From NCBI GenBank assembly GCA_017469935.1, contig JAFUFL010000008.1, forward strand, positions 19,746 to 83,745: 64,000 bases of DNA, in the 5' to 3' direction. How positions within the stretch are numbered: position 1 is the first letter of the stretch; the number at the start of each line of letters is the position of its first letter. The position numbers and the translations under genes were made by a program. Shown piece after piece: positions 2,467 through 20,595 of the stretch. This DNA is from Lachnospiraceae bacterium. GTDB taxonomy: Bacteria; Bacillota; Clostridia; Lachnospirales; Lachnospiraceae. Under the pieces are notes generated by a model. The model saw only the letters and a list, made by a program, of their open reading frames with translations, was not told where the DNA came from and did not search any database.

Positions 2467-2516
2467 AAGGGCGCAATGACTCCGGAAATGTTTTTCCGGC
2501 ACGTCATTGCGCCCTT
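2467..2516 (-). terminator. Leader hairpin of purF (candidate attenuator)
   Basis: In the purF transcript this folds as a 14-bp outer stem (AAGGGCGCAATGAC with GTCATTGCGCCCTT), a small bulge and a 7-bp inner stem with a four-base loop. It ends in CCCTTTTG. It starts about 28 bases after the predicted transcription start and ends 28 bases before the start codon, so it is a terminator-like structure inside the 5' leader. Confidence 0.7.
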
Positions 2517-2644: not shown

Positions 2645-2672
2645 TTGACACAAAGTGACATACGCGTAATAA
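2645..2672 (+). promoter_or_regulatory. Promoter of the KaiC-like/ATP-grasp gene
   Basis: TTGACA (2645-2650) and TAATAA (2667-2672) with 16-base spacing. The promoter is back to back with the purF promoter. Confidence 0.6.
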
Positions 2673-2705
2673 TCTAATTAATCAAAACGCAATAACGTTC
2701 TATCG

Positions 2706-2774
2706 AAGCGGCAAGGATGTCGTGATCGGAAAATGCAGATTTTGTAGTTTCCGATGAATACATCCCTGCCGCTT
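2706..2774 (+). terminator. Leader hairpin of the KaiC-like/ATP-grasp gene, with shared GGCAAGGATGTC word
   Basis: The outer stem AAGCGGCA/TGCCGCTT, middle stem GGATGT/ACATCC and inner stem ATCGGAAA/TTTCCGAT are followed by CTTTTC. It lies about 30 bases after the predicted transcription start. The 5' arm contains GGCAAGGATGTC (2710-2721), nearly the same word found at the same place in the amt and glnN leaders. Confidence 0.7.
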
Positions 2775-2821
2775 TTCGATTGCCGAAGCGGCGGCAGATC
2801 ATAACAGAAAGGAGGCTTCCT

Positions 2822-5413
2822 ATGGCAGCATTTGACAAAGTAAAGAGCGGGATCCCGCAGATGGATGAGATACTTGACTACATTCGCATGGGCGACAACG
2901 TGGTCTGGCAGGTCTCGGATATCGATGAGTTTCGCTTTTTCACCATTCCCTATGTGAAACAGGCCATCCGGGATCAGCGCGACATTGTTTATATCCGGTT
3001 TGCGCAGCACGCCCCGATCCTGACAGATCCCGAGATCCTGAGGCATGTTGAAGTGGTGAAGTTCGATTCAGATGCAGGATTTGAATCTTTTACGGTGGCG
3101 ATCCACGACGAGATCACAAAGCATGGGAGGGAGGCTTTCTATGTTTTCGACTGTCTTTCGGAGCTGCAGTCCGTCTGGTATACGGATCTGATGATGGGAA
3201 ATTTCTTCCGCGTGACATGTCCTTACCTGTTTGAACTGGATACAGTGGCTTATTTTCCGGTTTTGCGGGGGAGGCACTCTTTTGACGCAATCGCGAGGAT
3301 CCGCGAAACGACACAGCTTCTGCTGGATGTGTGCTCCAATGAGAAATGGATCTATCTGCACCCGATCAAGGTGTGGGAGCGAGCATCGGATACCATGTTC
3401 CTGCCCCACGGCTACAGAAAGAGTACGGGAGAATTCCGGCTTTTGGAGGACGGCGTGCGCATCAGCCGCTATTACCAGACGCTGCAGCAGATCCGGGACA
3501 GGAGCCAGGACCAGAATATTGACAGCTACGACCGTTTTTTTACCATGGCCAAGGCGGCGTTTGAGTCAGGAAGGTTCACGCCGCAGATGGAAGAGCAGAT
3601 CATAGACAGTACGATGACCAAGGACGGTCATTTAAAGGAACTGGTCAGAAAGTACTTTGCGCCTGCGGATTACTTTGCGCTGCGGGACCGCATGATCGGG
3701 AGCGGCGCGATCGGCGGCAAGGCGTGCGGCATGCTGCTGGCCAGGAAGATTGCGGACACGGAGCTGGAGGAATATCGGACCTATGCGGAACCGCATGATT
3801 CTTTTTATATAGGATCGGATGTTTTTTACACTTACATTGTTTCGAATGGGGACTGGAACCTGAGAATCCGGCAAAGATCCAGGGAGGGGTATTTCGACAC
3901 GGCAGGTGAACTGAGAGAGAGGCTTCTTGCGGGAAAATTTCCGGGGAAGATCCGGGAGCAGCTGCGAGCCGTGCTGGAATATTTTGGCCGAAACCCGTTT
4001 ATAGTAAGGTCTTCAAGTTTTCTGGAAGACGGCTTCGGAAATGCCTTTGCCGGAAAGTATGAGTCCGTGTTCTGCGTCAACAGAGGAAGCGAGGAGGAGA
4101 GGCTGGAAGCCTTTGAAAATGCCGTGCGGCAAGTCTATGCCAGTACTATGGACCGGTCTGCGCTGGAGTACCGCCTGCGGAGGGGGCTGGCAGGCAAAGA
4201 TGAGCAGATGGCAATCCTTGTGCAGCGTGTATCGGGCAGCTATTATGACAAATATTTTATGCCCTGCGTGGCAGGGGTCGGCTACAGTCACAGCGCCTAT
4301 CAGTGGTATCCAAATATGGATCCGTCGGCGGGTATGCTTCGGATGGTGATGGGGTTGGGAACAAAAGCAGTGGACAGAACGAGGGAGGATTATCCAAGGC
4401 TTGTAAATCTGGACCGGCCGACGGTGACGATCTACACCAGCGCGGCGCAGAAGCATAAGTTTTCGCAAAGATACATAGATACTCTGGACTGCAAGGACAA
4501 CTGCTGCCGGGAAGTGCCTCTGGAGACGCTGCTGGAGGTGCTGCCTCTGTGGTATAAGCGGATGGTAATGGAGCGCGACTATGAGGCGGAGCGCATCCTT
4601 TATGATCTGGGAAGGCCCCGGCAGGTCTGGTTTGTGAGTTGTCAGAAGCTTCTGGAAAACACGGCTTTCACCGGTCTCATGCAGAGTATTCTCAAGACGC
4701 TGGAGCATGTCTACAAGACGCCCGTGGATATTGAGTACGCCGTCAATATGGATGAAGACGGCGAATTTGTAGTCAACCTTCTGCAATGCCGGCCTCTGTA
4801 CCTCGGAGGGGAAGGAGAGAATGTTCAGGTAGAGAATAATTCTCCCGAAAAGGTCATATTCGATGTGCGCGGCGCCTCCATGGGCACGTCAAAAAAGAGA
4901 AGGATCGATGTTGTCGTCCAGATCGACGCAAAGCGCTATCATGAGATGCCCTATGCACAGAAGCACAAGGCGGCCAATGCTGTCGGAAGGATCAACCGTT
5001 ATTATGCGGACAGCGGGAAAAATCTGCTCCTGATGACGCCGGGGCGAATCGGCACGTCTTCTCCGGAGCTTGGCGTTCCGGTATGTTTTGCCGATATCTC
5101 CCGTTTTGGAGTGATCTGCGAGGTTTCGGACGTCCAGGCGGGGTTTATGCCGGAGCTCAGCTACGGAAGCCACATGTTTCAGGATCTGGTGGAGGCGGAG
5201 ATCAGTTACAGCGCTGTGTTTAATGATACAAAGACAATCCGGTATGATCCGGCGGCCCTGCAGGACGTGGAGGACTCTTTTGGGCAGATCTGCCCCGATA
5301 TGGAAGAACTCGTCGGCATGATTGCGGTCAGAGAGACTGAGAATCTGTATTACTGGTTGGATTCGGTGAAAAACCATGCGGTCTGCGGATTCATCGAGGG
5401 CGAAAAAAAGTAG
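2822..5413 (+). CDS. Degenerate KaiC-like domain joined to a PEP-synthase/PPDK-type ATP-grasp domain
   Basis: 863 residues, started at the ATG that follows AAAGGAGG; an upstream in-frame ATG lacks a site. Residues 1-190 read like a KaiC/RadA domain (SGIPQMDEIL, then FYVFDCLSELQSVW at the Walker B place), but the Walker A loop is replaced by WQVSDIDEF. Residues about 300-670 resemble the ATP/pyruvate-binding domain of PEP synthase and pyruvate phosphate dikinase: GAIGGKACGMLLAR, then FIVRSSSFLEDGFGNAFAGKYE, and LLQCRPLYLGG at its end. The phosphohistidine and PEP-utilising domains of those enzymes are absent. The last about 190 residues are unrecognised. Function is unknown. It could be a phosphotransferase or a regulatory protein, and its leader suggests nitrogen control. 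Confidence 0.75.
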   Translation: MAAFDKVKSGIPQMDEILDYIRMGDNVVWQVSDIDEFRFFTIPYVKQAIRDQRDIVYIRFAQHAPILTDPEILRHVEVVKFDSDAGFESFTVAIHDEITKHGREAFYVFDCLSELQSVWYTDLMMGNFFRVTCPYLFELDTVAYFPVLRGRHSFDAIARIRETTQLLLDVCSNEKWIYLHPIKVWERASDTMFLPHGYRKSTGEFRLLEDGVRISRYYQTLQQIRDRSQDQNIDSYDRFFTMAKAAFESGRFTPQMEEQIIDSTMTKDGHLKELVRKYFAPADYFALRDRMIGSGAIGGKACGMLLARKIADTELEEYRTYAEPHDSFYIGSDVFYTYIVSNGDWNLRIRQRSREGYFDTAGELRERLLAGKFPGKIREQLRAVLEYFGRNPFIVRSSSFLEDGFGNAFAGKYESVFCVNRGSEEERLEAFENAVRQVYASTMDRSALEYRLRRGLAGKDEQMAILVQRVSGSYYDKYFMPCVAGVGYSHSAYQWYPNMDPSAGMLRMVMGLGTKAVDRTREDYPRLVNLDRPTVTIYTSAAQKHKFSQRYIDTLDCKDNCCREVPLETLLEVLPLWYKRMVMERDYEAERILYDLGRPRQVWFVSCQKLLENTAFTGLMQSILKTLEHVYKTPVDIEYAVNMDEDGEFVVNLLQCRPLYLGGEGENVQVENNSPEKVIFDVRGASMGTSKKRRIDVVVQIDAKRYHEMPYAQKHKAANAVGRINRYYADSGKNLLLMTPGRIGTSSPELGVPVCFADISRFGVICEVSDVQAGFMPELSYGSHMFQDLVEAEISYSAVFNDTKTIRYDPAALQDVEDSFGQICPDMEELVGMIAVRETENLYYWLDSVKNHAVCGFIEGEKK

Positions 5414-5460
5414 TGTGACACACCATGACATACGACCTCTCAGACATACGACCTCTGAGG
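5414..5460. repeat. Short intergenic repeat with ACCTCTGAGGT palindrome
   Basis: Just after the preceding stop codon, ACATACGACCTCT occurs twice in tandem (about 5427 and 5442), the second time as ATACGACCTCTGAGGTGG. The same GAGGT-containing words occur inside pyrG, gltB, gltD and the surface operon. A TGTGACACACCATGACA stretch before it resembles a scrap of the family A palindrome. Confidence 0.55.
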
Positions 5461-5500
5461 TGGCTTGTGCAAAACGACGATTTTTCTCTCCACAGAAAAT

Positions 5501-5518
5501 GTATAATTGTATACAATT
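5501..5518. promoter_or_regulatory. Operator-like palindrome upstream of amt
   Basis: GTATAATTGTATACAA (5501-5516), containing the perfect palindrome AATTGTATACAATT (5505-5518), ends 6 bases before the -35 box. The same 16-base word lies 7 bases before the glnN -35 box (8347-8362). The position fits an activator or a nitrogen-responsive regulator; its identity is unknown. Confidence 0.65.
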
Positions 5519-5522
5519 GTCT

Positions 5523-5550
5523 TTGACTTTCCGATCCGGAAATGTATAAT
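5523..5550 (+). promoter_or_regulatory. amt promoter
   Basis: TTGACT (5523-5528) and TATAAT (5545-5550) with 16-base spacing, about 145 bases upstream of the coding region. Confidence 0.8.
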
Positions 5551-5581
5551 GAGTGACATATTATTCAAATTATCTCACGAG

Positions 5582-5625
5582 GGCAAGGGAGTCCGGATCC
5601 GCAGGGTCCGGGCTCTTTCTTTTTA
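5582..5625 (+). terminator. Leader terminator of amt with shared GGCAAGGGAGTC word
   Basis: GGCAAGGGAGTC (5582-5593) forms the 5' arm of a hairpin (CCGGA/TCCGG and GAG/CTC with wobble pairs below) followed by CTTTCTTTTT. It is about 30 bases after the predicted transcription start and 70 bases before the gene, so unless bypassed it should stop transcription. Confidence 0.75.
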
Positions 5626-5695
5626 TATATGGCAGGGTGCACGGCCGTATCGGAAATGAGAGCCCGAAGTGAGATAGAGAAAAGGAGGAAATACA

Positions 5696-7498
5696 ATGAA
5701 CTACGATGTGACAACCGTGATATGGGTACTTATAGCAAGCGCCCTGATCTACTTCATGCAGGCCGGATTTGCGCTGTGTGAGGCGGGTCTTACCAGGGCC
5801 AAAAACACGGGCAATATTTTGATGAAGAACCTTATGGATTTCTGTATCGGAACTCCCTGCTACTGGCTGGTCGGATTTGGCCTTATGTTTGGAAGCACAG
5901 CTCCGATCATCGGGCGGCTGGATCCCATGATCCGCGGGATCTACGGCGCTGAAAATACAGTAGTGCCGCAGACAATGCCTCTTTGGTGCTACGTGATCTT
6001 CCAGACCGTCTTTTGTGCGACGGCAGCCACGATTGTCTCGGGATCCATGGCGGAGCGCACCAATTTTAAGGCTTACTGTCTGTACTCGGCGGCCATTTCT
6101 CTTTTGATCTATCCGATCGGAGGACACTGGGCCTGGGGCGGCGGCTGGCTGTCGGGGCTGGGCTTTCACGATTTTGCCGGAAGCGCGGTAGTACACAATG
6201 TGGGCGGCGTGATCGCATGTCTGGGCGCATGGATGCTGGGCCCCCGCATCGGCAAGTATGACCGGGACGGCAAGGTCAGAGCGATTCCGGGCCACAACAT
6301 GATGGCCGTGGCGCTGGGGGTCTTCATCCTGTGGTTTTGCTGGTTCGGCTTCAACGGCGGTTCCACCGCTTCCATGGCGGACGGCGCGGACGCTTTCCAC
6401 GCTTCGCTGGCCTTCATGAACACGAACCTTGCGGCAGCCGTCGCGACTGTTGTGACGATGATCTTCACATGGTTTCGCTACGGCAAGCCGGATGTCTCCA
6501 TGACACTCAACGCCTCCCTGGCGGGACTTGTGGCGATCACGGCGGGATGTGACTGCGTTTCACCCTTTGGCGCTTTTGTCATCGGCGTTGTGGCCGGATT
6601 CCTGGTAGTTTTGTCTGTTGAATTTTTTGACAACATTGCCAGAATTGATGATCCGGTCGGCGCCGTGTCGGTCCACATGGCAAACGGCATCTGGGGCACG
6701 ATCGCGGTCGGTCTCTTCAGTACCGGCGAGGACGGCGTCATGAAGGGCCTGTTCTACGGCGGCGGCGCAAGGCTCCTGGGCGTACAGGCGCTCGGCATCG
6801 CGGCGATCGACGCCTATGTGCTCCTCACAATGTTTGTGGTGTTCAAGCTGATCGACCGCGCGATCGGGCTTCGCGTGCCGGCGCAGGTGGAGATCGACGG
6901 CCTGGACATGCATGAGCACGGCCTGGCCAGCGCTTACTCCGGCTTCTCCGTGAGTGATGTCTCCAACATGGTCATGGATGTCAATGAAAACACGTACCTC
7001 GGAGAGGGCGAGTACGCAAAAGCCTCTGAGGCGCAGGTCAGCGCGGCGGTCAAGGTCGCCGGTGCGCCGGTCACGCCGGCCACGCCAGTCGCAGCGGGAG
7101 AGAGCGCAGGATCCGCAGTGCCGGCCGGATACAGGGCAGAGACAGGTATGCACAGGATTTCCATCATCTGCCGGATGAGCAAATTCGATGAGCTTAAGCA
7201 CGCACTCAACGAGCTGGGCGTGACCGGAATGACGATGTCGCAGGTCATGGGCTGCGGCATTCAGAAAGGATCGGAAGAGCGCTACAGAGGCGCGGTGGTC
7301 GACTCTACGCTGCTTCCCAAGGTCAAGGTGGAAGTTGTCGTCTCCAAGATTTCCGTGCAGAGCGTGATCGACGCTGCCAAGAAGGCACTTTATACGGGCC
7401 ATATCGGCGACGGCAAGATCTTTGTGTACGACGTGACGAGAGTCGTGAAGGTACGGACCGGAGAAGAGGACTTCGACGCGCTGCAGGATGTGGAGTGA
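5696..7498 (+). CDS. amt: Ammonium transporter fused to a P-II (GlnK-like) domain
   Basis: 600 residues. Residues 1 to about 430 are an Amt/Mep channel with 11 expected membrane segments and both pore histidines, in DFAGSAVVHNVGG and DPVGAVSVHMANG. An Ala/Val/Pro-rich linker (about 440-480) joins it to a P-II domain (about 485-600). That domain has the T-loop GCGIQKGSEERYRGAVVD and LPKVKVEVVV. The tyrosine uridylylated in enteric P-II (GAEY) is Val here, so control by ATP/ADP/2-oxoglutarate binding is more likely than by uridylylation. Amt-PII fusions are known in Clostridia. A GGAGG site precedes the ATG. Leader hairpin, operator and promoter are listed separately. Confidence 0.95.
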   Translation: MNYDVTTVIWVLIASALIYFMQAGFALCEAGLTRAKNTGNILMKNLMDFCIGTPCYWLVGFGLMFGSTAPIIGRLDPMIRGIYGAENTVVPQTMPLWCYVIFQTVFCATAATIVSGSMAERTNFKAYCLYSAAISLLIYPIGGHWAWGGGWLSGLGFHDFAGSAVVHNVGGVIACLGAWMLGPRIGKYDRDGKVRAIPGHNMMAVALGVFILWFCWFGFNGGSTASMADGADAFHASLAFMNTNLAAAVATVVTMIFTWFRYGKPDVSMTLNASLAGLVAITAGCDCVSPFGAFVIGVVAGFLVVLSVEFFDNIARIDDPVGAVSVHMANGIWGTIAVGLFSTGEDGVMKGLFYGGGARLLGVQALGIAAIDAYVLLTMFVVFKLIDRAIGLRVPAQVEIDGLDMHEHGLASAYSGFSVSDVSNMVMDVNENTYLGEGEYAKASEAQVSAAVKVAGAPVTPATPVAAGESAGSAVPAGYRAETGMHRISIICRMSKFDELKHALNELGVTGMTMSQVMGCGIQKGSEERYRGAVVDSTLLPKVKVEVVVSKISVQSVIDAAKKALYTGHIGDGKIFVYDVTRVVKVRTGEEDFDALQDVE

Positions 7499-7653
7499 GC
7501 GGCAGCGCAGGAGAGTGGTTTCATTCTTCCATTTTCAAAACAGAGATAGTGTTCTATGATAGTAGGGCAGCTGTTTTATGTGCATCTGCAATAGGCTGAC
7601 AGTCTATAAAGGCGGAAGCGAAAAGTAGAAAAGTACGGGAAGGAAAACCACAA

Positions 7654-8259
7654 ATGGACGAATCAAAAAAGAGACTGATCATGTGTATTACGGGAGTATT
7701 TCTGTCCGGTGTTGCAGCGGGGATATTCGGCTTCACGGCATTCGGTATGGACCCATTTCAGGTCTTTGCTCACGGACTGTGGGGGCTCACCCCGATTTCC
7801 TACGGCACGTTCTATGTAATACTGAACGGAATCCTGCTTGCCTTCATGTTCTTCTTCAACAGGCGCATGATCGGGCTCGGAACCATCATAAATCTGTTCC
7901 TTCTGGGATATGTGGTGGAGTACACGGGCGTGCTCCTGGAAAGGGTATTCCCTTCCCCGGCAGTCGCTTTGAGAGTTATCCTGATGATCGCGGCGCTGAT
8001 CCTTGCGTCCCTGGCGGCTTCTCTCTATTTTGTCGCGGATATGGGAGTCTCCGCCTATGACTGGATCGCGCTGACGATCTCTGAGAGAAAAGGATGGGCG
8101 TTCCGAATCGTCCGCATTACTACGGATTTCATCTGCGTCCTGACAGGAGGTCTTCTGGGGGCGAAAGTGGGAATCGGCACGGTATTGACCGCGTTTTGTA
8201 TGGGGCCGATCATCCAGTTCTTCAATGAGAAGGTCTCGACGCCGCTCAGATACAGTTAA
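7654..8259 (+). CDS. YczE/YyaS/YitT-type membrane protein
   Basis: 201 residues with five or six hydrophobic segments, starting after GGGAAGG. The opening (IMCITGVFLSGVAAGIFGFTAFGMDPFQ) and the later SAYDWIALTISERKGW followed by a DFICVLTGGLLGAKVGIGT stretch match the YczE/YitT family of five-pass membrane proteins, whose transport function is not established. It sits between amt and glnN and may be expressed with them, but a family A palindrome separates it from glnN. The role in nitrogen metabolism is only by context. Confidence 0.8.
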   Translation: MDESKKRLIMCITGVFLSGVAAGIFGFTAFGMDPFQVFAHGLWGLTPISYGTFYVILNGILLAFMFFFNRRMIGLGTIINLFLLGYVVEYTGVLLERVFPSPAVALRVILMIAALILASLAASLYFVADMGVSAYDWIALTISERKGWAFRIVRITTDFICVLTGGLLGAKVGIGTVLTAFCMGPIIQFFNEKVSTPLRYS

Positions 8260-8270
8260 ATGTCGCAGGG

Positions 8271-8342
8271 TTTGTGTCACGGGGACGTATCTTCTGACAC
8301 ATTTTGCAAAATGTGTCAGAAGATACGTCCCCGTGACACAAA
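8271..8342. repeat. Perfect 72-bp palindrome, family A
   Basis: Thirty-six bases starting TTTGTGTCACGGGGACG are followed directly by their exact reverse complement, with no spacer. The centre is ATTTTGCAAAAT. The element begins 11 bases after the stop codon of the YczE-type gene and ends 4 bases before the glnN operator. It could act as a transcription end for the upstream gene in RNA form. Confidence 0.95.
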
Positions 8343-8346
8343 TTTC

Positions 8347-8362
8347 GTATAATTGTATACAA
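8347..8362. promoter_or_regulatory. Operator-like palindrome upstream of glnN
   Basis: GTATAATTGTATACAA, identical to the word upstream of amt, ends 7 bases before the -35 box. Confidence 0.65.
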
Positions 8363-8369
8363 AATAGTG

Positions 8370-8397
8370 TTGACATTATCGACACGTTATGTATAAT
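8370..8397 (+). promoter_or_regulatory. glnN promoter
   Basis: TTGACA (8370-8375) and TATAAT (8392-8397) with 16-base spacing, both consensus. Confidence 0.85.
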
Positions 8398-8408
8398 AAT
8401 GACTCAAA

Positions 8409-8460
8409 GGCAAGGGTGTCTTAACAGACGGTGACGACCGTCTGTTAAGGCGCCCTTTCT
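8409..8460 (+). terminator. Leader terminator of glnN with shared GGCAAGGGTGTC word
   Basis: GGCAAGGGTGTC (8409-8420) leads into a hairpin: AAGGG/CCCTT base, a small internal loop, then 13 bp CTTAACAGACGGT/ACCGTCTGTTAAG with a four-base loop. CTTTCT follows. It starts within about 10 bases of the predicted transcription start. Confidence 0.8.
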
Positions 8461-8488
8461 CGTTGTTCAGAAATAAGGAGGTAAGATC

Positions 8489-10585
8489 ATGAACATCCCC
8501 GAAATCTACGGAAGTATGGTATTCAATGACAAAGTCATGCGGGAGCGTCTCCCCAAGGATATATACAAGGCAGTGCGCAAGACCAGCAAGAACGGCACGC
8601 ACCTGGAACTGGACGTGGCCAACACGGTGGCTGCCGTCATGAAGGAGTGGGCGATGGAGAAGGGCGCGACCCACTTCACCCACTGGTTCCAGCCGATGAC
8701 CGGCCTGACTGCCGAGAAGCACGACGGCTTTATCTCCCCCACAGAAGACGGGCAGGTCATCATGGAGTTCTCCGGCAAGGAGCTGGTCAAGGGTGAGCCT
8801 GACGCCTCCAGCTTCCCTTCCGGAGGCCTCCGGGCTACCTTCGAGGCCCGCGGCTACACCGCCTGGGATCCCAGCTCACCGGCTTTTGTCAAGGACGGAT
8901 CGCTCTACATTCCCACCGCTTTCTGCTCCTACGGCGGAGAAGCCCTGGACAAGAAGACCCCGCTCCTGCGGTCCATGGAAGCCCTCTCTGACGCAGCTGT
9001 CAAAGTATTGCACCTTCTGGGCAACACCGCCGTCACCCACGTGGACACGACCGTGGGATCGGAGCAGGAATATTTCCTGATTGACAAGGATCTCTATAAG
9101 AAGAGAAAAGACCTTCTTCTGACCGGCCGCACGCTGATGGGAGCGCCGGCGCCCAAGGGACAGGAGATGGAGGATCACTATTTTGGCGTGCTTAAGCCGA
9201 AGGTGTCGGAATACATGCACGCGCTGGATAAGGAGCTCTGGGAGCTGGGCGTGCCGGCCAAGACCAAGCACAACGAGGTCGCTCCGTCCCAGCACGAGCT
9301 GGCGCCGGTCTTCGAGACCGCAAACGTGGCGGTGGACCACAACCAGCTGACCATGGAAGTGATGAAGAAGGTGGCGGACCGCTTCGGATACGCGTGCCTG
9401 CTGCACGAGAAGCCTTTCGAGGGCATCAACGGATCGGGCAAGCACAACAACTGGTCCATCAGCACCGACACCGGCGAGAACCTCCTCGATCCCGGAAAGA
9501 AGCCGGGCGAGAACCTGCAGTTCCTGGTCTTCCTCATGGCGGTCATCGCAGCGGTCGATGAGTACCAGGAGGTCCTGAGAATTTCCGTCGCGACGGCCGG
9601 AAACGACCATCGCCTGGGCGGCAACGAAGCGCCGCCCGCGATCATCTCCATCTTTGTGGGAGACGAGCTGGCGGAAGTCCTTCGTTCTGTTGAGGAAGGC
9701 ACAACCGTATCGGGCACGGGCAAAAAACAGATGGGCATGGGCGCGCACGTCCTGCCGCATATCACCCGCGACACGACGGACAGAAACCGCACTTCGCCGT
9801 TTGCTTTCACCGGCAACAAGTTTGAGTTCCGCATGCCGGGCAGCTCCCTGTCCGTGGCCAACCCCAATATCGTGCTGAACACGGCGGTTGCCGAGGCGCT
9901 GACGCAGATCTACGAGGCCCTTAAAGACGCAGCGCCGGCGGATCTGGATGAGGCGGCGCATGCGCTCCTTCGCCAGATGCTGGCAAAGCACAAGCGGATC
10001 CTCTTCAACGGCAACGGCTACACGGAAGAGTGGGTGGAAGAGGCGGCCCGCAGAGGCCTTGCAAACCTGGGCTCCCTGCCGGACGCCATGCCGCACTTCA
10101 TCTCCGAGAAGTCTCTGAACCTCTTCACAAAGCATGGCATCTTTACCAAGGAAGAAGTCTTCTCCCGCTATGAGATTCTTCTGGAAAACTATGCGAAGAC
10201 CGTGCACATCGAGGCGCTCACACTCATGGAGATGGTGCGCAAGGATTTCACCACCGGCCTTGTCCGCTACATGAAGGACGTGACCACCGAAGCGCTCAAG
10301 AAGAGAGATCTCCTTCCGGGGAGCAAGTGCAGTTATGAGAGCGATATTTTGAAGACATTGGATGAGACCAGCGAGCAGATCCTGCGGGCTATGGAGGCCC
10401 TGGCGGCGGATACGGCGAAGGCAGAGCGTATCGAGGACAACCTGGAGCAGGCAAAATATTATCACGAGATCATTCTCACCGAGATGGACGAGCTGCGCAG
10501 CTGGACAGACAGGGCAGAGGCCATCATTCCGGATGAATATCTGCCTTATCCGACCTATGAGAAGATGCTGTTCTCACTGCGATGA
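8489..10585 (+). CDS. glnN: Glutamine synthetase type III
   Basis: ATP-dependent synthesis of glutamine from glutamate and ammonia, cytoplasmic. At 698 residues it has the usual GSIII length. Diagnostic stretches include FPSGGLRATFEARGYTAWDP (about residue 110), VGSEQEYFLID, TKHNEVAPSQHELAP and NGSGKHNNWS (metal and glutamate binding). AAGGAGG lies 8 bases before the ATG. Promoter, operator and leader terminator are strong and shared in style with amt, indicating nitrogen-dependent control. gltB follows after 147 bases and may be read through from the same promoter. Confidence 0.97.
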   Translation: MNIPEIYGSMVFNDKVMRERLPKDIYKAVRKTSKNGTHLELDVANTVAAVMKEWAMEKGATHFTHWFQPMTGLTAEKHDGFISPTEDGQVIMEFSGKELVKGEPDASSFPSGGLRATFEARGYTAWDPSSPAFVKDGSLYIPTAFCSYGGEALDKKTPLLRSMEALSDAAVKVLHLLGNTAVTHVDTTVGSEQEYFLIDKDLYKKRKDLLLTGRTLMGAPAPKGQEMEDHYFGVLKPKVSEYMHALDKELWELGVPAKTKHNEVAPSQHELAPVFETANVAVDHNQLTMEVMKKVADRFGYACLLHEKPFEGINGSGKHNNWSISTDTGENLLDPGKKPGENLQFLVFLMAVIAAVDEYQEVLRISVATAGNDHRLGGNEAPPAIISIFVGDELAEVLRSVEEGTTVSGTGKKQMGMGAHVLPHITRDTTDRNRTSPFAFTGNKFEFRMPGSSLSVANPNIVLNTAVAEALTQIYEALKDAAPADLDEAAHALLRQMLAKHKRILFNGNGYTEEWVEEAARRGLANLGSLPDAMPHFISEKSLNLFTKHGIFTKEEVFSRYEILLENYAKTVHIEALTLMEMVRKDFTTGLVRYMKDVTTEALKKRDLLPGSKCSYESDILKTLDETSEQILRAMEALAADTAKAERIEDNLEQAKYYHEIILTEMDELRSWTDRAEAIIPDEYLPYPTYEKMLFSLR

Positions 10586-18782: not shown

Positions 18783-20009
18783 ATGCGAAGTTACAGTGAA
18801 ATCCGTGAGTTTATTGAAGAGAATGATGTTGAGTTTATAAGGCTTGCCTATTTTGACGTGTTCGGAACGCAGAAAAATATCGCGATCATGTCAGGGGAGC
18901 TGGAGAGAGCGATGAAGTACGGGATTTCCATTGACGGAGCGGCGGTGGCCGGGTTTGACGCCAGCATCCGCAGCGACCTCTTCCTGCGGCCCGATCCTTC
19001 CACCATCTCGATCGTCCCCTGGAGGCCGGCGGACGGAAGAGTCTGCCGAATGTTCTGTGACATCGTCTATCCGGACGGAACGCCCTTCGAAAGAGACACC
19101 CGCTTTATACTGGGGAAAGCGATCCAGGAAGCCCGCTCCAAAGGAATAGAAGTGAAATTCGGACCGGAGGTAGAGTTTTACGTGTTCCGGCAGGACGAGC
19201 ACGGCCGCAGGACCGATACGCCGATCGACCAGGCGGGCTATATGGACATAGACCCTCTGGACGCGGGCGAAAACCTGCGCAGGGATATCTGCTACGCACT
19301 GGTGGAGATGGGGATCACTCCCGAATCTTCCCATCACGAGCAGGGACCCGGCCAGATGGAGATCGACTTCCGGTACGGAGATCCCATGACGGCCGCCGAC
19401 AATACTTCCACTTTCAAGTGGGCAGTGCGCAGCATCTGCGCGGCGGACGGCTATGCGGCGGATTTCTCGCCCAAGCCCATTTCGGACAAACCGGGCAACG
19501 GCATGCACCTCAATATTTCGGTGCATCGCATAGGAGAAGAGGATCGGCCGACGGATCTGGACGCCTTTATGGCCGGCATTCTCAAGTACATCCGTGAAAT
19601 CACCCTGTTTCTGAATCCCTCCGAGCAGTCTTACTGGCGCTTTGGCCGCATGGAGGCGCCGCGCTACATCAGCTGGTCCATGCAGAACCGCTCGCAGCTG
19701 ATCCGCGTGCCGGCAGACCCTTCCGGGCGCAGAAGGATCGAACTGCGGTCTCCGGACCCGCTTGCCAATCCCTATCTGGCTTTCGCTCTTTTGATCTATG
19801 CAGGGCTGGAGGGAATTGAACAGAACATGACGCCTCCGCAGTCCATCGAGGCAAATTTGTATAAAGAAGATCCGGCGCTGATGCGGGGACTTGAGCAGCT
19901 CCCGGCGTCCAGGCAGGAGGCAGTGCAATGCGCGATGCAGAGCGAACTGGTCAGGCGCCGTGTTCCCGGGTCGTGCCTGGAGGCGTACGCGTATGAAGGG
20001 AAGAAGTAA
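18783..20009 (+). CDS. Short type I glutamine synthetase-like ligase
   Basis: 408 residues, shorter than typical GSI (about 440-470). It keeps the core motifs FGPEVEFYVF, HHEQGPGQMEIDFRY, NGMHLNIS and RIELRSPDPLANPYLAF. The Tyr adenylylation region of enteric enzymes is not evident. The AGGTAATA site is tight against pyrG. It could be a second glutamine synthetase, a related gamma-glutamyl ligase or a sensor of glutamine status. Its overlap with the ANTAR gene suggests the two act together, as in Clostridia where a GS and an ANTAR regulator are neighbours. Confidence 0.85.
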   Translation: MRSYSEIREFIEENDVEFIRLAYFDVFGTQKNIAIMSGELERAMKYGISIDGAAVAGFDASIRSDLFLRPDPSTISIVPWRPADGRVCRMFCDIVYPDGTPFERDTRFILGKAIQEARSKGIEVKFGPEVEFYVFRQDEHGRRTDTPIDQAGYMDIDPLDAGENLRRDICYALVEMGITPESSHHEQGPGQMEIDFRYGDPMTAADNTSTFKWAVRSICAADGYAADFSPKPISDKPGNGMHLNISVHRIGEEDRPTDLDAFMAGILKYIREITLFLNPSEQSYWRFGRMEAPRYISWSMQNRSQLIRVPADPSGRRRIELRSPDPLANPYLAFALLIYAGLEGIEQNMTPPQSIEANLYKEDPALMRGLEQLPASRQEAVQCAMQSELVRRRVPGSCLEAYAYEGKK

Positions 20010-20595
20010 GACCTGTTATTGCCTGGCCGCTGCCGGCAAGGAGGACAATGTCCTTCTGCTGCGGCAGATCCTCCGGGGAGTTACGGCTCCCGGGCAGATC
20101 CAGATCCGTCAGGCCCTGACGCTTGAGCAGGTCAGGCGAGGAGTGACGGGAGCGGGTGCGCAGGCGCCGGCGGACCTTCTGATCGCCGCCATGCCGCTCA
20201 GTGACGGCGCCGGCGTGGAGGGCATCATCGATGTGGCGCAGAGAAACCCGCAGCTGATGATTATTCTGATGGTAAGACAGGAAGCTTTCGAGCAGGTGAC
20301 TTACCAGTGCAGAAACCTTCCGGTCTTCGTCGTCGCCATGCCTTTCAAGCGGCAGGTGCTGGCGGAAGCGGCCTCCTTTATGCTCCGGATCGGTACGGCC
20401 ATGGCCGACAAGGACAAGGAGCTGGCGCGCCTGAGAAAGAACCTGAGCGAGGTCAGGACAATTACCCGCGCCAAGATCCGGCTGATCCAGACGCGGCAGA
20501 TGACGGAAGAAGAGGCCCACTATTATCTCGAAAAAGAGGCCATGGACAAGAGCCTGACGAAGAGAGAGGTGGCGGAGGAGATATTGAAACAGTAG
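19993..20595 (+). CDS. ANTAR-domain antiterminator with degenerate receiver domain
   Basis: 200 residues, overlapping the preceding gene by 17 bases; GGAGG lies 9 bases before the ATG. Residues about 140-200 fit the ANTAR RNA-binding domain (AKIRLIQTRQMTEEEAHYYL, then EAMDKSLTKREVAEEI). Residues 10-125 have a receiver-like layout, but the phospho-acceptor site reads LLIAAMPLSDG where active receivers have LLDxxMP..DG, and the conserved Lys region reads VVAMPFKR. It therefore probably does not respond to phosphorylation. A similar regulator (NitR) has been proposed to control glnA/gltAB by antitermination in solventogenic clostridia. The terminators in the amt, glnN and neighbouring leaders are its likely targets (inference). 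Confidence 0.88.
   Translation: MKGRSKTCYCLAAAGKEDNVLLLRQILRGVTAPGQIQIRQALTLEQVRRGVTGAGAQAPADLLIAAMPLSDGAGVEGIIDVAQRNPQLMIILMVRQEAFEQVTYQCRNLPVFVVAMPFKRQVLAEAASFMLRIGTAMADKDKELARLRKNLSEVRTITRAKIRLIQTRQMTEEEAHYYLEKEAMDKSLTKREVAEEILKQ

Follow-up and report, generated by a model that had tools for sequence, protein, structure and literature searches.

Candidate single-hexaloop transcription attenuators of nitrogen genes in Lachnospiraceae and their probable ANTAR reader

How are nitrogen genes controlled when a strong terminator-like hairpin stands between promoter and gene, and which factor reads such leaders? The question arises from a 64,000-nucleotide stretch of a Lachnospiraceae genome (GenBank assembly GCA_017469935.1, contig JAFUFL010000008.1, positions 19,746 to 83,745 of the forward strand; hereafter the window), in which exact copies of a 12-base word, GGCAAGGRWGTC, start at 2710, 5582 and 8409, each time between a sigma-70-like promoter and the next gene. 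These genes are one for a PPDK_N-domain protein (KaiC-like/ATP-grasp in the initial annotation), amt and glnN (Table 1). The initial annotation proposed premature termination as the control of several nitrogen genes and pointed to an ANTAR antiterminator encoded in the window. The gene is indeed there, after glnA. The sequences support termination control, and an A1/G4 hexaloop, its covariation and its co-occurrence with ANTAR genes make the ANTAR protein the probable factor. It is likely, judging from these sequences, that the leaders are transcription attenuators with a single hexaloop and that their reader is the ANTAR protein whose gene follows glnA.

The hexaloop and its terminator

The word does begin the long hairpin of each leader, as annotated, but it is itself an alternative mini-hairpin that straddles the base of the terminator. 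All three copies form a hairpin with a six-base loop, GGC[AAGGRW]GUC (loop in brackets), in which the first loop base is A and the fourth G (A1 and G4). In all three leaders the 3′ arm of this hexaloop is part of the 5′ arm of the terminator, so that the two folds are mutually exclusive. The C/T tracts described after the hairpins are present, as CTTTTCG in the PPDK_N leader, CTTTCTTTTT in the amt leader and CTTTCTC in the glnN leader. Against dinucleotide shuffles the three leaders fold with z-scores of −5.8, −2.7 and −7.8 (PPDK_N, amt and glnN), and 0, 3 and 0 of 200 shuffles, respectively, fold as well, which makes amt the weakest fold.

The word thus corresponds to the second hairpin (P2) of the published ANTAR target, a hexaloop overlapping a terminator, and the earlier view that the leaders are unlike that target has to be given up for this hairpin. 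The supposed need for another RNA form or another factor lacks support, the hexaloop being of the published type. That each leader shows mainly one long hairpin rather than two hexaloops was a correct observation as far as the first hexaloop (P1) is concerned, which is missing, but one hexaloop is present.

From this arrangement we infer the following mode of action. One hexaloop mini-hairpin would fold near the transcript start, with the loop A1-A2-N-G4-G5-N and, in the family, a closing C-G pair; its 3′ arm would also serve as the 5′ arm of an intrinsic terminator, and only one of the two folds could form. When active ANTAR protein is lacking, the far more stable terminator would form and transcription would stop. 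ANTAR protein bound to the hexaloop, probably under nitrogen limitation, would hold the 3′ arm and let the polymerase pass into glnN, amt or the PPDK_N gene.

Does the word itself mark such leaders? Its chance expectation from base composition is approximately 2.5e-5 per 200-nucleotide (nt) leader, a post hoc figure as the word was derived from the same three leaders. A looser pattern, GGCAARGRWGTC, occurs at 22 places in the whole genome, all of which were folded: over 80 nt the three window sites reach −33.7 to −40.4 kcal/mol and the other 19 places −10.6 to −27.1 kcal/mol. Of the three window sites, a script that looks for a hexaloop plus terminator flags two, and it flags no place among the remaining 19. 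The PPDK_N leader, whose terminator is long and interrupted, escapes it, yet the same leader is flagged in five relatives. We rejected the word as a genome-wide signature, because the stem letters differ in most relatives and the structure is the constant part. The Rfam scan of the window gave no match at the gathering score, and among nine loci scanned up to E=1 there were five matches, none of them at the hexaloop element.

Conservation, covariation and co-occurrence with ANTAR genes

The six-base loop is conserved in relatives. A scan of named genomes for glnN relatives yielded at least 593 loci, of which the best 80 were taken; 79 had enough upstream DNA. When any stem of at least four pairs overlapping the terminator 5′ arm is admitted, with the loop sequence unconstrained, 59 of the 79 upstream regions have a loop of six bases, whereas loops of 4, 5, 7 and 8 nt are seen in 7, 6, 1 and 9 regions. 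A1 and G4 are found in 57 of the 59 six-base loops (0–2 in five shuffles), the commonest form being AAAGC[AAAGGC]GCUUU. Among the 20 regions in which the script finds no element, some read as operon interior (Butyrivibrio) and a few show a variant by eye.

The two arms of the hexaloop stem also covary. In all 121 matches of the model, without hand selection, 88.3% of the cells are paired, and 50 cells carry a double change compared with 14.0 ± 3.1 in shuffles (0 of 500 as high) and at most 28 when the arms are slid. A set of 61 diverse leaders gives 92.3% paired cells and 57 double-change cells (17.9 ± 4.5 in shuffles; no more than 19 with the arms slid). Double changes in 10 of 14 pairs show covariation in the terminator stem as well. 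The alignments differ in how their rows were chosen. A further alignment holds 51 rows preselected for a stem of at least four pairs (57 of the 79 regions), and its pairing percentage is circular because of that preselection; the 61-row alignment (60 rows with the 5′ arm) was hand-picked for variety and leans the same way. The fairer tests are the loop-length test, which makes no demand on the loop, and the covariation over all 121 matches, antisense readings included. Lack of covariation or conservation of the hairpins had been named in advance as grounds for abandoning the idea; both are present.

After removal of 23 rows (opposite-strand readings, and places duplicated in overlapping loci) 98 elements were kept from the 121 matches. 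A1 is present in 94, G4 in 97 and the closing C-G pair in all 98, counts that are biased by the model. These are elements and not genes: 93 have a gene downstream, which corresponds to 87 distinct genes, named from sequence signatures and not from Pfam. The element precedes mostly nitrogen genes: glnN 36, amt 16, gltB 9, purF 7, asnB 5, pyrG 5, carA 2, gdhA 2 (tandem elements before one gene) and PII 1, with ten other genes, one of which looks asnB-like, and five elements for which no gene was found.

If an ANTAR protein reads the element, do the two occur together? The counts cover the family and the order level. Model R1 (E 0.01; 150 Lachnospiraceae genomes) matches in 100 of the 150 genomes, and 136 of them have the ANTAR family. 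A match is found in 98 of the 136 genomes with ANTAR and in 2 of the 14 without (p 3.6e-5). At the order level outside the family, model R2 (E 0.001) matches in 54 of 90 genomes with ANTAR and in 2 of 38 without (p 2.9e-9); the two exceptions (G214 and G230) proved on later reading to be ordinary terminators at gene ends that have no hexaloop. Of 29 order-level loci with model hits in ANTAR-bearing genomes that were read individually, 28 have the element.

Alternative readings and the missing first hexaloop

Could the structure be a constitutive 5′ terminator or an RNA-stabilising stem that needs no regulator, the word being no more than the A-tract and G+C foot that terminators usually have? 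Pairing of the U tract with the A residues that precede the stem is conceivable, and covariation is seen in the terminator on its own. The extra 5′ arm, however, has no role in a plain terminator and yet covaries with the 3′ arm, the six-base loop length and A1/G4 are specific, and the model hits track ANTAR genes, on which grounds we rejected a plain terminator as highly unlikely. A different protein might also bind the loop. CsrA binds GGA in hexaloops, and CAAGGAUGU of the PPDK_N leader resembles the CsrA consensus from systematic evolution of ligands by exponential enrichment (SELEX). Loop position 6, which follows the two G residues, is however C in 88 of the 98 model hits and A in two, so that GGA is not the conserved feature, in contrast to A1, G4 and the co-occurrence with ANTAR genes. 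Judged by the loop GGA expected of a CsrA target (no search for the csrA gene was made), we rejected CsrA, or another protein that binds GGA in loops, as an extremely remote candidate.

A third alternative is the usual ANTAR target with two hexaloops, in which the first has degenerated or comes with transcripts that start further upstream. The published ANTAR target (eut, nas, ami) is defined as two hexaloops, and a search with a model of both hairpins brought up nitrogen regulons (Ramesh et al, 2012; PMC3369931); an actinobacterial survey likewise requires dual stem-loops (PMC8164766). The PPDK_N leader of the window does carry a mini-hairpin 8 nt upstream of the hexaloop, the AACG/CGUU stem of which is kept in four of five close relatives (by eye: L238, L239, L242 and L262, not L240), and which is perhaps a worn P1, or chance. 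At the class level an upstream A1/G4 hexaloop is found in 3 of 18 leaders (the other 7 of the 25 loci had no element near their centre). One of these, the amt leader of L346 near 1501, is clearly dual, with GAUGC[AACGAG]GCAUC followed by AAAGC[AAAGGC]GCUUU, and dual and single forms therefore coexist in Clostridia. Elsewhere an upstream A1/G4 hexaloop is not enriched. Within 45 nt it occurs in 3 of 148 leaders with a stem of at least four pairs and in 6 with at least three, and control segments have as many or more (4 and 11 of 147); the 148 leaders pool two sets, and 5 of the 56 glnN leaders of one set are present again in the second. No second A1/G4 hexaloop lies upstream in any of 28 order-level leaders. 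The promoter could be located for 54 of 60 leaders. In 52 of these the stem begins 3–13 nt after the −10 element (mode 8), the two exceptions being the amt and PPDK_N leaders of the window; this places the hairpin at the predicted start of the RNA, and in most glnN leaders a P1 would not fit before it. Whichever gene follows, model hits have mostly the same spacing, with more than 14 nt in 13 of 88. On balance we consider the dual target very improbable for these leaders. Duplication of another kind was seen: two complete hexaloop-terminator units stand in tandem in the amt leader of a close relative (L001, 3750–3850) and also in L004, L005, L205, L206 and L286. The window amt leader is the counterpart of the second unit of L001 only.

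How do single hexaloops relate to what has been described? The minimal bound unit has been reduced to one hexaloop in which G4 stacks on EutV Tyr164, and bioinformatics on single-hexaloop sites was called for (Walshe et al, 2022; PMC8934654). The present leaders share with this minimal motif the single hexaloop, which would be the unit bound by an ANTAR dimer, and differ in that their hexaloops overlap terminators. With the dual target they share the A1/G4 hexaloop, the 3′ arm inside an intrinsic terminator, the conserved closing pairs, the nitrogen genes and an ANTAR gene in the same genome, whereas the window leaders lack an A1/G4 P1 with its linker and the glnN hairpin stands at the predicted 5′ end. 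An architecture with one A1/G4 hexaloop is present in the leaders according to both the loop-length test and the search for P1. In these leaders, single hexaloops joined directly to terminators occur naturally in large numbers, and their genomes encode an ANTAR protein to match, which makes the question of one versus two hexaloops directly testable.

Several findings weigh against single-hexaloop attenuation by an ANTAR protein. The number of pairs with a double change does not exceed the shuffles, either in the 61-leader set (81/500) or over the 121 matches (249/500), nor does the number of pair types in the 61-leader set (371/500), and 4 of the 98 loops have G1 instead of A1. A model match is lacking in 38 of the 136 family genomes with ANTAR; ten of these were read at glnN, where the element is found in seven by scan and in three by eye (not blind), two of the latter with G1 and one with a 3-pair stem. 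Two of the 14 genomes without ANTAR have a glnN element (G051 by scan, G097 by eye), and as for the two ANTAR-less genomes with a model match, that of G106 lacks the hexaloop arm and G058 was counted from the match alone. Transcription starts are predicted from promoters, and in the amt and PPDK_N leaders of the window 30 and 34 nt precede the stem, so that a 5′-terminal hairpin holds in the window only for glnN. The PPDK_N-leader element occurs in 6 of the 21 loci that include the 5′ end of the gene, close homologues only; five of the six (L238, L239, L240, L242 and L262) carry the same hairpin as the window. One hexaloop might also not suffice, because deletion of P1 or a change of the linker impaired eutP induction (Ramesh et al, 2012) and the dimer must contact each hexaloop in turn (Walshe et al, 2022). 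As a separate observation, a PPDK_N-type homologue in another family also has the element (L333, by eye).

The ANTAR protein, its putative signal and neighbouring features

What might the ANTAR protein respond to? Its gene is coupled to type I glutamine synthetase (GS; PF03951): both are present in 134 of the 150 genomes and neither in 12, with two discordant genomes each way (p 4.7e-14), and in 13 of 14 ANTAR loci examined the type I GS lies in the same locus, adjacent to the ANTAR gene. In the receiver-like domain, Ala takes the place of the phospho-Asp of 1s8n, and by eye 12 relatives show no conserved Asp at the phospho-acceptor site. The window protein thus lacks the Asp expected of an ANTAR regulator controlled by phosphorylation in the manner of EutV. 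As in AmiR (1qo0), a receiver-like domain is present and a His follows the conserved Ala of the ANTAR helix; this position would be the counterpart of EutV Tyr164. AmiR is held by a separate sensor, AmiC, whereas here GlnA is a candidate partner only. A receiver without phospho-Asp and a gene coupled to glnA suggest that the signal probably comes by protein contact and not by phosphorylation, with GlnA as the best candidate; TnrA in Bacillus, as described in a review passage, is a precedent for protein contact with GlnA.

A fuller version of this idea is that glutamine-bound GlnA holds the non-phosphorylatable ANTAR protein and frees it on nitrogen limitation, so that single-hexaloop attenuators of glnN, amt, gltB, purF, pyrG, carA, asnB and gdhA open across Lachnospiraceae, one hexaloop at the 5′ end being enough because it has folded before the polymerase reaches the terminator. 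We put this forward tentatively, with somewhat less than even confidence. The leaders also point to a nitrogen regulon of gut and rumen bacteria in which the job done elsewhere by GlnR/TnrA or NtrC may fall to antitermination at the RNA level, linked to glutamine synthetase itself.

Coupling of an ANTAR gene to GS is a feature of NitR, of which a study in Clostridium saccharobutylicum was reportedly made by Stutz et al. in 2007. In this species NitR acts as ANTAR antiterminator on the GS/GOGAT genes, which are induced when nitrogen is limiting (PMC6316151; PMC4676874), and nitrogen control by ANTAR in Clostridium, as a mechanism class, is known. The present set is similar in the coupling and in having GS/GOGAT genes as presumed targets; unlike NitR, which is compared here without its RNA target, it extends from Lachnospiraceae to other Clostridia and takes in genes for glutamine amidotransferases. 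What seems new is the single hexaloop fused to the terminator, the breadth and the coupling to GlnA. Among the literature matches listed for ANTAR, NitR, glutamine synthetase and GCAAAGGCGC we found no description of single-hexaloop nitrogen leaders, the supplementary tables of Ramesh et al (2012) and subscription papers (Stutz 2007) lying outside these matches.

Some further loci bear on the ANTAR gene and its surroundings. In the window, pyrG precedes the glnA-ANTAR pair. In a genome without a PF03951 match (G014), an open reading frame for a CTP synthase of 582 amino acids ends in an ANTAR domain (L298:1625-3373, minus strand), which is either a real fusion or an assembly artefact. A second ANTAR frame, of 119 amino acids and without the receiver-like domain, is found in the genome of the window itself (C32:90254), in a locus whose opposite strand encodes another type III glutamine synthetase.

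Table 1. Features of the window that are discussed in the text (loop sequences in brackets; energies in kcal/mol).
Feature	Position	Strand	Details
purF leader hairpin	2467..2516	-	terminator-like, without A1/G4 hexaloop; not counted as a member
PPDK_N promoter	2645..2673	+	TTGACA-17-AATAAT
P1-like mini-hairpin, PPDK_N leader	2686..2699	+	AACG[CAAUAA]CGUU; 8-nt linker to P2; loop without A1/G4
Hexaloop, PPDK_N leader	2708..2723	+	GCGGC[AAGGAU]GUCGU; P2-type ANTAR target; -4.5
Competing terminator-like hairpin, PPDK_N leader	2708..2776	+	-35.8; T tract
PPDK_N-domain protein gene	2822..5413	+	863 amino acids
amt promoter	5523..5550	+	TTGACT-16-TATAAT
Hexaloop, amt leader	5581..5594	+	GGGC[AAGGGA]GUCC; -3.4
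Competing terminator, amt leader	5586..5628	+	U tract; -23.5 for 5586-5618
amt	5696..7498	+	fused to PII domain
glnN promoter	8370..8397	+	TTGACA-16-TATAAT; 12/12 consensus positions
Hexaloop, glnN leader	8407..8422	+	AAGGC[AAGGGU]GUCUU; 9 nt after -10; -2.6
Competing terminator, glnN leader	8412..8462	+	T-rich tail; -37.0 for 8412-8457
glnN	8489..10585	+	type III glutamine synthetase
glnA	18783..20009	+	type I glutamine synthetase; candidate ANTAR partner
ANTAR protein gene	19993..20595	+	receiver-like domain without phospho-Asp, and ANTAR domain

The purF leader of the window had been noted for a similar hairpin. The hairpin is real (z −6.8) but has no A1/G4 hexaloop, its sole hexaloop reading being CGC[AUAAGG]GCG, without G4, and none of the 23 purF loci from this genus is flagged by the script. 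We therefore rejected purF as a fourth member for this genus, although it does have the element elsewhere, as in the seven cases counted above. By eye, the purF leaders of the genus (window and L302–L308) conserve another terminator-like hairpin, which has an asymmetric bulge and lacks an A1/G4 hexaloop.

Two palindromes lie near the leaders. One, TTGTATACAA, stands directly upstream of the amt and glnN promoters (5507–5516 and 8353–8362) and recurs in the relatives L001–L005 and L290, with TTGTATGCAA as the version in L008; it resembles a GntR operator, and given its place beside these promoters initiation may be controlled too. The other, a long palindrome beginning GTGTCACGGGGACGTATC, occurs twice in the window (about 8272–8344, and 929–985), resembles a mobile repeat and gave one sub-threshold microRNA match in the Rfam scan.

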